From a virus, in the IMG/VR virus record IMGVR_UViG_3300028831_000280, positions 1 to 40,437 of that record: 40,437 nucleotides of DNA; one strand, given 5' to 3'. Positions 1,949-26,103 of the stretch are shown one piece after another. The translations under genes were made by a program, and so were the position numbers. Below the pieces are notes generated by a model. That model made no database searches. It was given only the letters and a program-made list of their open reading frames with translations, and was not told where the DNA came from. Each line of letters begins with the position of its first letter. Position 1 is the first letter of the stretch.

Positions 1949-2571
1949 TGGAAGCCAAGCGAACGACGTACCGAGGCATCACGTTCCGGTCGCGACTGGA
2001 GGCGCGCTGGGCGGTGGTGTTCGACTACCTGGAGATCGAGTGGCTGTACGAACCGCAGCGCTACATCATCGACATGGCGACCGGCGACGGCCTGGAGGAG
2101 CGCACGTACCTACCCGACTTCCTGCTACCCGCAACCAAGACGTGGGTTGAAGTCAAGGGTGAGATGGACCGAGTCGACTGGCGGCTGCTCGCCAACGCGA
2201 TCGACGGCTTTGGCCGGAAGTTGCCGCACGTTCACGAGAGCTACCGACGCTCAGCTGCCGGTCTGCTCATGCTTGGTGAGATCCCGAACCCGTGGCGGAC
2301 GACACCCGTCTTCCCGCTACTCCAGCACAACAAGGGTGGGTACGTCACGTGGGCAACACCCACTGACACCTGGTTGACGGCGCGTCAGCTCAACGCGACA
2401 ACGGACGACGTCAGCTTTGAGTCGCACCAGACCGAGGGCGACGCGGAGCGTGAAGACTGGATTCAGCGGGTGGCGTGGCTGTGGAAACCACGCATTGGAC
2501 TCACGGTTGAGCCGCACGCCAACGTCACGCAAGCCTACCGTCGGGCACGCTCGTACGCCGCCTGGGGCTAG
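1948..2571 (+). CDS. PD-(D/E)XK-family nuclease
   Basis: A 207-aa putative endonuclease. The N-terminal half carries a PD-(D/E)XK-like arrangement: E18 in FRSRLEARW, D57 in YLPDFLLP and E68-V-K70 in WVEVKGE, as in small phage nucleases related to TnsA-N or resolvase-like folds. The C-terminal half has no motif I recognise. Its ATG overlaps the helicase stop, so the two are probably co-translated and the nuclease likely acts in replication or recombination. The exact substrate cannot be told from the sequence. Confidence 0.7.
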   Translation: MEAKRTTYRGITFRSRLEARWAVVFDYLEIEWLYEPQRYIIDMATGDGLEERTYLPDFLLPATKTWVEVKGEMDRVDWRLLANAIDGFGRKLPHVHESYRRSAAGLLMLGEIPNPWRTTPVFPLLQHNKGGYVTWATPTDTWLTARQLNATTDDVSFESHQTEGDAEREDWIQRVAWLWKPRIGLTVEPHANVTQAYRRARSYAAWG

Positions 2572-2592
2572 CTCTGGAGGGAGTTCTCCGGA

Positions 2593-2821
2593 AAACTGGC
2601 AACATGGCCCAAACTGGCAACAAGCCCGCGGGAGTTCCCGGCGAAACTGGCAACAGGTGGTGAAACTGGCAACAAGGAATTGGACCCTGTTGCCAGTTTC
2701 GCGGTTTTGTTGCCAGTTTGGGTGTCAGTCGACAAACTCCTCTCGCGTACGGGTACGCGACGCGAGAGGAAGTTACTGGCAAGTGGCCCAAACTGGCAAC
2801 AGGCGGCCCAAACTGGCAACA
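2593..2821 (+). repeat. Iteron-like array of a 12-bp repeat (AAACTGGCAACA)
   Basis: Exact copies of AAACTGGCAACA start at 2593, 2611, 2644, 2663, 2790 and 2810. Two exact inverted copies (TGTTGCCAGTTT) lie at 2688 and 2708, and a degenerate copy at 2773. Several are preceded by GGCCC. The spacing (18, 33, 19, 25, 20 and 20 bp) does not fit a coding repeat. The array fills the gap between the nuclease stop and the TerS-like gene. It could be an origin with iterons, a packaging (pac/cos) recognition site for TerS, or an operator or partition site. The sequence does not decide among these. Confidence 0.9.
2739..2769. repeat. 9-bp inverted repeat inside the iteron array
   Basis: CCTCTCGCG (2739-2747) is perfectly complementary to CGCGAGAGG (2761-2769), with a 13-nt centre. 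It lies between the inverted and the distal direct iterons. It may be a cruciform, protein-binding site or transcript hairpin in the same control region. No T tract follows, so a simple terminator is unlikely. Confidence 0.6.
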
Positions 2822-2841
2822 GGGTCGAAAGGAGGAAGAGA

Positions 2842-3540
2842 GTGACGAGTAGTGAGGATAAGGTGCCGGGTCTGTACCTCATGCCTGACGGCAGGCCGTG
2901 GCGAGTGAGGAAGGGGAAGCGTGGCGGCACCGGACCGTTCTGCCCAGGAGAGCAGAAGGATGGCTTGCCCTGCCGTCACTACCCGGGAGAAGGAACTGTT
3001 CACTTTGGACTAGGCTACTGCCGAGGACACAGCAACCGCAAGGCTGAGGAAGTGTGGGGTAAGGCGATGGATGTCGCGCGTGAGTTGAACATCTCTCCCT
3101 GGGACGCGCTGCTGCACTCGGTCCGCGTGGCGGCCGGTCGAGCTGCCTGGGTGGACATTCAGCTGAAGGAGGCTGTGCAGCGGAACGACGGCAACTCAGC
3201 TTCTCCCGAGGTGAGGGGTTGGCTGAAGGAGTCACGCAGCGAGCGCATGATGATGGCGCGCGTCGCCAAGGCTGCACTGGACGCGGGCGTCGCCGAGCGC
3301 CTGGTGCGCAACGTGGAGCTGGAGGGAGAGATCGTCGCGGAGGTCATCGGCCGCGTGCTGGACAAGCTCCAGCTCCCGACCGAGCAGCGCGTGCTGGCGT
3401 TCGACGAGGCGCACAGGCAGCTGCTCGCGCTGGAAGCTCCCTCCGGAGGCGCGACTACGGTTGAGGGAGAGTGGAAGCCGTTCGGTGGCGACGACAGCAC
3501 AGGGTCGAGCGGGAAGGACGAGGGAGGAAGTCAGCGGTGA
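2842..3540 (+). CDS. Terminase small subunit-like protein
   Basis: A 232-aa protein. The start GTG at 2842 is chosen because GGAGG lies 7 nt upstream; the frame is open to 2680 but that part runs through the iterons. The N-terminal region is Cys/His-rich (CPG, PCRHYPGEG, GYCRGH, residues ~30-60), as in a zinc-binding element. The C-terminal helical part (ARVAKAALDAG, VAERLVRNVELEGEIVAE, EQRVLAFDEAHRQLLALE) resembles the C-terminal part of actinophage small terminases, which bind packaging-site DNA and recruit TerL. Unusually, the large subunit lies about 36 kb away at 39521. The adjacent iterons are a natural candidate binding site. A DNA-binding regulator is the alternative. Confidence 0.6.
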   Translation: MTSSEDKVPGLYLMPDGRPWRVRKGKRGGTGPFCPGEQKDGLPCRHYPGEGTVHFGLGYCRGHSNRKAEEVWGKAMDVARELNISPWDALLHSVRVAAGRAAWVDIQLKEAVQRNDGNSASPEVRGWLKESRSERMMMARVAKAALDAGVAERLVRNVELEGEIVAEVIGRVLDKLQLPTEQRVLAFDEAHRQLLALEAPSGGATTVEGEWKPFGGDDSTGSSGKDEGGSQR

Positions 3541-7532: not shown

Positions 7533-7604
7533 GCCCCGTTCGTCTAGCGGCAGGACACCTGACTCTCACTCAGGAGATCGCGGGTTCGAATCCCGCACGG
7601 GGTA
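7533..7604 (+). tRNA. tRNA-Glu (CTC)
   Basis: Complete cloverleaf: acceptor GCCCCGT/ACGGGGT, anticodon stem CCTGA/TCAGG with loop CTCTCAC (anticodon CTC), T arm CGGG-TTCGAAT-CCCG. CCA is not encoded. It probably supplements decoding of GAG, a very common codon here. Confidence 0.95.
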
Positions 7605-20374: not shown

Positions 20375-20411
20375 GGTAAGGTTGACGACAACAGCCCGAT
20401 TGGAGTCGACA

Positions 20412-20834
20412 GTGATCAAGATGGCCAAGTGCATCGGACGCGCGGATTGCGGGGGTGATCCGAGATCACGTGGACTGTGCGCGGCGTGCTACGCGCGGCA
20501 CAAGTACGCGGGTACGTTGCACGCGTACCCCACGATGCAGGAACGTCTCATTGGTCTGGATCTACGGAGCCAGCAGCCAACCGCGGTGATCAGTCGCAGG
20601 TACCGCGTGCGTCGGTACAACGAGCGCGTCTGGGTTCACGGCTACCTCGTGCACCCGCGCGCCAAGCACGGGCATCACAACAGCTACGTTGCCTTCGGTT
20701 GCCGCGGGCCGATGTGCCGCGCGGCACAGCGCTGGGTGCGTGATACCGGCCAGTCTGCGCTACCGGTCGCCCGCCTGGTTGACCGCACGGTTGACGACTG
20801 CGTCAACTACGCGGAGTCGGGGAGCTACCAGTGA
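20412..20834 (+). CDS. Cys/His mini-protein, fusion of two phage modules
   Basis: A 140-aa protein. Residues 1-55 have CIGRADCGG..SRGLCAACYARH, a treble-clef-like CxC/CxxC arrangement matching the N terminus of the gene at 22315. Residues ~70-115 have VHPRAKHG...YVAFGCRGPMC, matching the gene at 20831. It is thus a two-module fusion of families found singly nearby. GTG 20412 has GGAG 6 nt upstream. Probably zinc- and nucleic-acid-binding; function unknown. Confidence 0.7.
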   Translation: MIKMAKCIGRADCGGDPRSRGLCAACYARHKYAGTLHAYPTMQERLIGLDLRSQQPTAVISRRYRVRRYNERVWVHGYLVHPRAKHGHHNSYVAFGCRGPMCRAAQRWVRDTGQSALPVARLVDRTVDDCVNYAESGSYQ

Positions 20835-21136
20835 CGGAGGAGCGCAAGTTGACGCGTCGCGAACGTATGTCCAACACCACCGTTCGCTGGCAGCGTGACC
20901 GGTACGCCGAGCGCATCGTGATGAACGGCTTCAAGGTTCACCCGCACGGAGCCCACGGCCAGCTGCGCTCGTACACGGCGTACGGCTGCCGTGGACCGTT
21001 GTGCTACGCCACGCACAAGTACTACGCGGAGACGGGTGTTACCCAGCTGCCGCTGGTTGGCAACCGGCAGTTCACCGCGCACGAGTGTGCGACGTTCACC
21101 AGTGAGGTTTACGTCGACACGAGGAGGCCTCGGTGA
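20831..21136 (+). CDS. Cys/His mini-protein, single module
   Basis: A 101-aa protein with RIVMNGFKVHPHGAHG...YTAYGCRGPLCYATHKYY, closely matching the C-terminal module of the upstream gene, probably by tandem duplication. GTGA overlap. Basic N terminus (RKLTRRERM). Confidence 0.7.
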   Translation: MTEERKLTRRERMSNTTVRWQRDRYAERIVMNGFKVHPHGAHGQLRSYTAYGCRGPLCYATHKYYAETGVTQLPLVGNRQFTAHECATFTSEVYVDTRRPR

Positions 21137-23771: not shown

Positions 23772-23936
23772 ATGGATGAGGAAGATCGACCGTGCGACGA
23801 GGAAGCCACCTGTCACAAGGGTGGCACGATCCACTGTCGCATGTGGACACGTTACCCCGAGGTGTTCGAGGAAGGTGACGACGGCTGCTGCGTCGTTGGC
23901 TGCCCACTGGACGTAGATGAGGTGAACGTTCGGTGA
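23772..23936 (+). CDS. Cys-rich acidic protein, 54 aa
   Basis: Six cysteines and two histidines in 54 residues (CDEEATCHKGG, HC, GCCVVGC), probably metal-binding or disulfide-stabilised. ATG 23772 follows the upstream stop by 3 nt. Function unknown. Confidence 0.55.
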   Translation: MDEEDRPCDEEATCHKGGTIHCRMWTRYPEVFEEGDDGCCVVGCPLDVDEVNVR

Positions 23937-24223
23937 GTCACACGATTGGTCCCGGTCCCTGGTGCGGGACGGTCGGTGGGTACAACAACCACAAGTGCCG
24001 CTGCGCTCCCTGCACCGAGGCGAACACGATCGCCATCCGTAAAGCCCGCGCCGAGCGGTTCGCGGGTCGAGTGCTGGTTGCCGGCGTCCTAGTGCACCCG
24101 TACGCGGATCACGGAACCGTTGGCGGCTACCAGAACTGGGGCTGCCGCTGCTGGGACTGCACCCGGGTCAACAGTGAGTCGCGCCGTTGGTATCACAGGA
24201 AGGCGAAGGAAAGAAGTGAGTGA
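23933..24223 (+). CDS. Cys/His mini-protein, two modules
   Basis: A 96-aa protein with two modules: GTVGGYNNHKCRCAPCTEAN and VHPYADHGTVGGYQNWGCRC followed by WDC. It joins the pattern of the 19175 protein (G-T...Y...CRC-x-x-C) to the VHPxAxHG feature of the 20412 and 20831 proteins, so it links the whole family. GTGA overlap. Confidence 0.72.
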   Translation: MSHTIGPGPWCGTVGGYNNHKCRCAPCTEANTIAIRKARAERFAGRVLVAGVLVHPYADHGTVGGYQNWGCRCWDCTRVNSESRRWYHRKAKERSE

Positions 24224-26000: not shown

Positions 26001-26103
26001 GAAGAGTTGGCTGAGATGGTCAAGGCACGAGCCCTATCGCCGGTTCAAGCAGACGGCTCGGTCCAGCAGGTCGCTGGCGCAGGTTCGAAACCTGCACTCT
26101 TCA
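26001..26103 (+). tRNA. Abnormal class II tRNA-like gene with expanded anticodon loop
   Basis: Acceptor GAAGAGT/ACTCTTC is perfect, the D arm is canonical, the T arm GCAGG-TTCGAAA-CCTGC is perfect and a long variable arm (CCAGC/GCTGG) is present, as in Ser/Leu tRNAs. The anticodon stem CGAGC/GCTCG (26028-26032, 26056-26060) holds a 23-nt loop instead of 7, so no anticodon can be assigned. It could contain a 16-nt insertion or intron, or be a tRNA mimic with another role. Confidence 0.65.

Follow-up and report, generated by a model that had tools for sequence, protein, structure and literature searches.

The DNA analyzed here, hereafter the window, is the entire viral record IMGVR_UViG_3300028831_000280 (40,437 nucleotides), and it opens with a plus-strand gene (17 to 1948) that is truncated at its 5′ end by the record boundary. 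The helicase that a sequence-only reading of this DNA had placed beside a repeat array is indeed encoded here, as the product is a D5-type SF3 helicase of the PrimPol-helicase kind (Pfam D5_N, 3.5e-29; DUF5906, 1.3e-8). It is followed on the same strand by an endonuclease or Holliday-junction-resolvase-like gene (1948 to 2571; PHROG 9019, 2.7e-10; PHROG 945, 2.4e-7) and, beyond a non-coding stretch, by a gene of a small terminase subunit (TerS) family (2842 to 3540, plus strand) that begins with GTG, is preceded by AGGAGG, and has homologs that adjoin TerL. The non-coding stretch, bounded by the stop codon of the nuclease gene and the GTG at 2842, holds an array of nine iterons at 2593 to 2821. 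A motif search placed four exact direct copies of AAACTGGCAACA at 2593 to 2604, 2611 to 2622, 2644 to 2655, and 2663 to 2674, then two exact inverted copies at 2688 to 2699 and 2708 to 2719 (minus strand). A hairpin (2738 to 2770) comes next, and three direct copies close the array: a degenerate one, TTACTGGCAAGT, with the core ACTGGCAA intact (2773 to 2784), and two exact ones (2790 to 2801 and 2810 to 2821). These are the six direct, two inverted, and one degenerate copies in 230 bp that the sequence-only reading had counted. The extra inverted repeat that it reported is also present, with perfect arms of 11 bp (2738 to 2748 and 2760 to 2770) rather than 9 bp; the overall symmetry that it saw in the array is not, as there are two iteron sets around the hairpin, six iterons before it and three after it, and no overall palindrome.

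The array is unique within the record. At up to two mismatches, AAACTGGCAACA was found eight times in the 40.4-kb window against 1.7 expected, a count reached by none of 100 shuffles, and the window held no match at this threshold outside the array. In 20 Markov-simulated sequences of equal length and dinucleotide make-up, exact 12-mers never occurred more than twice per 230 bp, and no other repeat cluster in the record is as strong as the array (score 164, against a 99th percentile of 30, in 400-bp windows). The hairpin is GC-rich and, folded as single-stranded DNA, reached −17.2 kcal/mol (z −4.3), a value that none of 200 shuffles equaled. The array of the window shows no clear AT-rich melting tract, as its best 30-mer is 57% AT (98th percentile of a GC-rich genome); the AT-richest 30-mer in the array region of one related phage, G003, reaches 73% (100th percentile). 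A GC-skew analysis, which had been proposed as a check, did not locate an origin; only in G003 is the array close to the cumulative minimum. A terminator scan around the array was empty.

The window helicase lacks its N-terminus, where the primase would be, and the corresponding proteins of three related phages (G001 to G003) carry an N-terminal Prim-Pol domain (PF09250). An AF2 model of the window protein (mean pLDDT, 74) found its best match in the SaPI5 primase-helicase 7om0 (Z 30.1; rmsd 5.5 over 402 residues; model residues 181 to 643), and the next-best fold matches were other D5-type proteins. The SaPI5 alignment extends to model residue 643, that is, to the C-terminus, and thus across a predicted winged-helix-like domain at about residues 569 to 643. 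In the last 70 residues, the model places helices at 583 to 598 and 605 to 614, followed by wing strands at 619 to 621 and 629 to 631 (pLDDT about 73 to 82). This protein is the presumed origin-binding initiator. Its C-terminal domain diverges faster than its helicase core, with identities of 41% and 73%, respectively, between the window and G001 and of 45% and 63% between G002 and G003, as would be expected if the domain tracks the iteron.

The related phage contigs are 100.9 kb (G001), 93.4 kb (G002), and 84.4 kb (G003) long, and their helicases are 57% (G001) and about 28 to 31% (G002 and G003) identical to that of the window. In each of them, a PrimPol-D5_N-DUF5906 protein gene is followed by a non-coding region with an array; TerS is the next gene or the next but one, a small gene then intervening, and TerL lies in another part of the contig. 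The nuclease gene is found at this place in the window only. Counted as 12-mers with up to two mismatches, for which shuffled sequence gives at most two, the arrays consist of AAACGTGTCAAC four times in G001, TACCGGAACCGG ten times in G002, and CGGGTACAGTAG seven times in G003. In G002 and G003, no other repeat cluster of the entire contig scores as high as the array; this does not hold for G001, whose four iterons were not above local controls in a 10-mer test. The iteron words of the four phages do not cluster in one another's genomes, and a nucleotide search of phage records with the array region returned a single 84-bp match, which lies in the nuclease gene. The place and form of the array are therefore conserved, while its sequence is not, a pattern to be expected if the binding sites co-evolve with the protein that reads them. 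The earlier reading had turned on whether phages with the same gene order carry such repeats at all, and they do, in the same position and form though not with the same letters. Separately, a second repeat type, GTGATTGTTACTGAGAGT, occurs twice beside the iterons of G001 (L016, 7704 to 7751).

Exact pairs of the iteron were also present elsewhere, in elements that proved unrelated. L015 and L018, which are unrelated phages or islands, carry the word inside initiator-like genes, where AAACTGGCAAC is repeated on the reverse strands (L015, 4747 to 5592, with, for example, FAETGN repeats; L018, about 1350 to 2630). The same iteron word inside unrelated initiator-like genes is no sign of kinship, and the sharing of AAACTGGCAAC with L015 and L018 is probably convergent.

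The gene on the other side of the array had been called TerS-like in the sequence-only reading, correctly as it turned out. Its product has a Zn-knuckle-like N-terminus and is otherwise helical; it belongs to phrog_3678, a family of unknown function, and has no match in Pfam. In fold searches, the TerS model matched nothing significantly, and the identification rests on synteny. A scan of viral contigs with the single protein found nothing, and a scan with a six-sequence alignment found homologs at 46 loci, each on its own contig. TerL was detected in 24 of these contigs, and 20 of the 24 have the homolog no more than about 1.1 kb 5′ of TerL, so that synteny identifies the family as a small terminase subunit. 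The TerS of the window is about 36 kb from TerL (39521 to 40437).

A packaging site was one of the two functions that the sequence-only reading had offered for the array; it would be of the pac or cos type, with the neighboring TerS as the protein that binds it. The next gene downstream of the array is a genuine member of the TerS family, much as lambda cosB precedes Nu1, and all four phages keep TerS next to the array even with TerL tens of kilobases off. However, the array does not accompany this TerS family in other phages. D5_N occurs in only three of the 46 TerS contigs, namely, G001 to G003. Among the other 43, L033 had too little upstream sequence to be scored, and 41 of the 42 that were scored (five more of which had less than 700 bp upstream) showed no comparable array within 900 bp upstream of TerS; the same family thus stands beside TerL without one. 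The exception, L068, has repeats within an upstream open reading frame that resembles a replication initiator. Near the TerS genes of TripleJ, Kukla, Microdon, and LazerLemon, which are distant homologs, no comparable multi-copy iteron array was found either. Moreover, D5 helicases without this TerS nearby still have an array, as described below, and we consider a packaging site improbable. The array might also serve both replication and packaging, with TerS beside the origin coupling the origin to the start of packaging, for example, by reading DNA in or next to it. We hold this to be unlikely to the same degree, and TerS is not needed to explain an origin.

The presence of an array goes with the helicase rather than with the terminase, as far as the sequences compared here indicate. 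Where the D5 helicases of unrelated phages, with other downstream genes, are followed by a gap of more than 200 bp, arrays are found 3′ of the gene: GCGGCACCCG eleven times in Gordonia phage GMA4, ACAGGGACGG eight times in Mycobacterium phage Marcoliusprime, ATCTGTGCCC nine times in Mycobacterium phage DarthP, TTTGTTACTT six times in Bacillus phage phi105, GGTGAGCAGT five times in Lactobacillus phage EV3, and CTACACAACT six times in L080. Onyinye, R18.1, and Javan51 also have arrays 3′ of the D5 helicase, and DSL-LC01, with a 297-bp gap at this place, has no iterons there. Repeats rose above local control tiles in 13 of 16 cases with a gap of more than 200 bp versus 0 of 12 with no gap or one of less than 100 bp (Fisher p 1.5e-5), a value that is only indicative because some of the phages are related to one another and all were chosen by hand from hit lists, partly by genus. 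L076, with a gap of 100 bp, was left out of this count, and GMA4 was counted from a separate scan, as the fixed 400-bp window of the helicase-downstream scan missed most of its array, which lies further on.

A further candidate function is regulatory, the array serving chiefly as a set of operators for autoregulation of the helicase operon or of the rightward operon from TerS. Initiators often autoregulate through their iterons, and the array occupies a non-coding stretch ahead of a long rightward gene run. Nevertheless, a scan of 2400 to 3000 for sigma-70-like promoters, the one type that it covers, found none; the array lies 3′ of the helicase gene and not at the helicase promoter, and its placement is the same in phages with unrelated downstream genes. 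This function appears very improbable to us. A partition (centromere-like) site is hardly credible: clustered short direct repeats do also form plasmid centromeres, but no ParA/ParB-type gene was noticed beside the array, and both the position of the array and the variation of its iterons follow the helicase.

We therefore turn to the reading of the array as an origin, for which several known systems offer a comparison. Among them is the pri-rep-ori module of SaPIs and PICIs (SaPI5, SaPIbov1, EcCICFT073), which, according to published accounts (PMC6092414, PMC7581432), combines an AEP primase (in the phages compared here, a Prim-Pol domain is seen in G001 to G003) and a self-loading SF3 helicase with a C-terminal DNA-binding domain (predicted in the window) and has element-specific iterons in two sets directly 3′ of the gene, sometimes with terS further on. 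In the published account of PICI replication, the origin lies immediately 3′ of rep and contains two iteron sets, and plasmids without rep failed, while those without ori were much reduced (PMC6092414). Recognition of iterons 3′ of the gene through the C-terminal domain is described in the literature for both SaPI and SCCmec helicases. The window shares the broad features of this kind, namely, a D5-family SF3 helicase upstream, a predicted C-terminal winged-helix domain, and element-specific iterons 3′ of the gene. It differs in belonging to a large phage rather than a satellite, in the nuclease gene that intervenes, and in having its two iteron sets around a GC-rich hairpin, with no clear AT-rich tract between them.

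Among phages, Streptococcus phage Sfi21 has an annotated origin of replication in GenBank, a 302-bp non-coding element (the phage inhibitory sequence) directly 3′ of a D5-family primase, and a later paper describes this element as an origin (PMC6356513). There too, a non-coding repeat region lies 3′ of a D5-family gene, in Sfi21 directly after that for a Prim-Pol and DUF5906/Pox_D5 primase, and Pfam families are shared; in contrast, the Sfi21 region is AT-rich, has the iteron TTAGTTACT, and has no TerS directly alongside, and protein identity to the window is very low. The alpha protein of P4 is likewise an SF3 helicase-primase that binds origin repeats through a winged-helix domain, as cited in PMC4234260, although its primase is of the bacterial (Toprim) type. 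For pRN1, a required element lies directly 3′ of the gene for ORF904, a PrimPol-SF3-winged helix protein, but that element is a 100-nt stem-loop without iterons (PMC4234260). Finally, a lambda O-type origin also consists of iterons bound by an initiator encoded there (such binding is presumed in the window), yet the lambda iterons lie inside the initiator gene, whereas those of the window lie in non-coding DNA, with an SF3 helicase as the presumed initiator.

Taken with the position 3′ of the helicase gene, the three relatives, the unrelated phages, the annotated Sfi21 origin, and the literature, these comparisons favor the origin over the packaging site among the two functions first offered. 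The stretch from 2580 to 2830 is, very probably, the replication origin of a large phage, presumably bound by the self-loading D5 helicase encoded upstream; the host of the phage is probably an actinobacterium. A mechanism can be proposed by analogy, as follows: (i) the C-terminal winged-helix domain of the helicase would bind the nine AAACTGGCAACA iterons; (ii) two rings of the helicase could load, as the hairpin has an iteron group on each flank; (iii) the rings would melt the DNA between the iteron groups and move outward; and (iv) the PrimPol domain would prime synthesis outward. The missing clear AT-rich tract is the weak point of this mechanism, and the hairpin might supply the melting point in its place, as has been proposed for pRN1.

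Other phages and phage satellites are already known to have this layout, and the window is a solid new example of it rather than a new kind of system; an earlier description of such an origin in this phage group was not found. Here, a probable origin could be placed from sequence alone and its presumed reader protein named. This suggests a possible rule for uncultured phages, in which phage-specific iterons in a non-coding gap 3′ of a PrimPol/D5 helicase gene would mark the origin.

Several other features of these genomes deserve mention. TerS adjoins the putative origin and is far from TerL in all four phages, with a separation of about 20 to 37 kb in the window and G001 to G003 (if G001 and G003 are taken as circularly permuted), and most of its homologs from other contigs adjoin TerL. 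At 13603 to 15222, this phage genome encodes a TROVE/Ro60-like RNA-binding protein (PF05731). Six tRNA genes lie at 7533, 7615, 13407, 25851, 26174, and 33873 (Glu, Asp, Gly, Gln, Ser, and Leu), and a further tRNA at 26001 to 26103 was called by Rfam and is not listed by ARAGORN. Just before TerL, a run of sugar genes (34562 to 39318), also present in L014, includes a family 2 glycosyltransferase by Pfam and, by eye, nucleotide-sugar epimerase-, methyltransferase-, and dehydrogenase-like genes. Four small proteins (19175 to 19456, 20382 to 20834, 20831 to 21136, and 23933 to 24223) have a similar Gly-Tyr and Cys-rich motif and look like paralogs.
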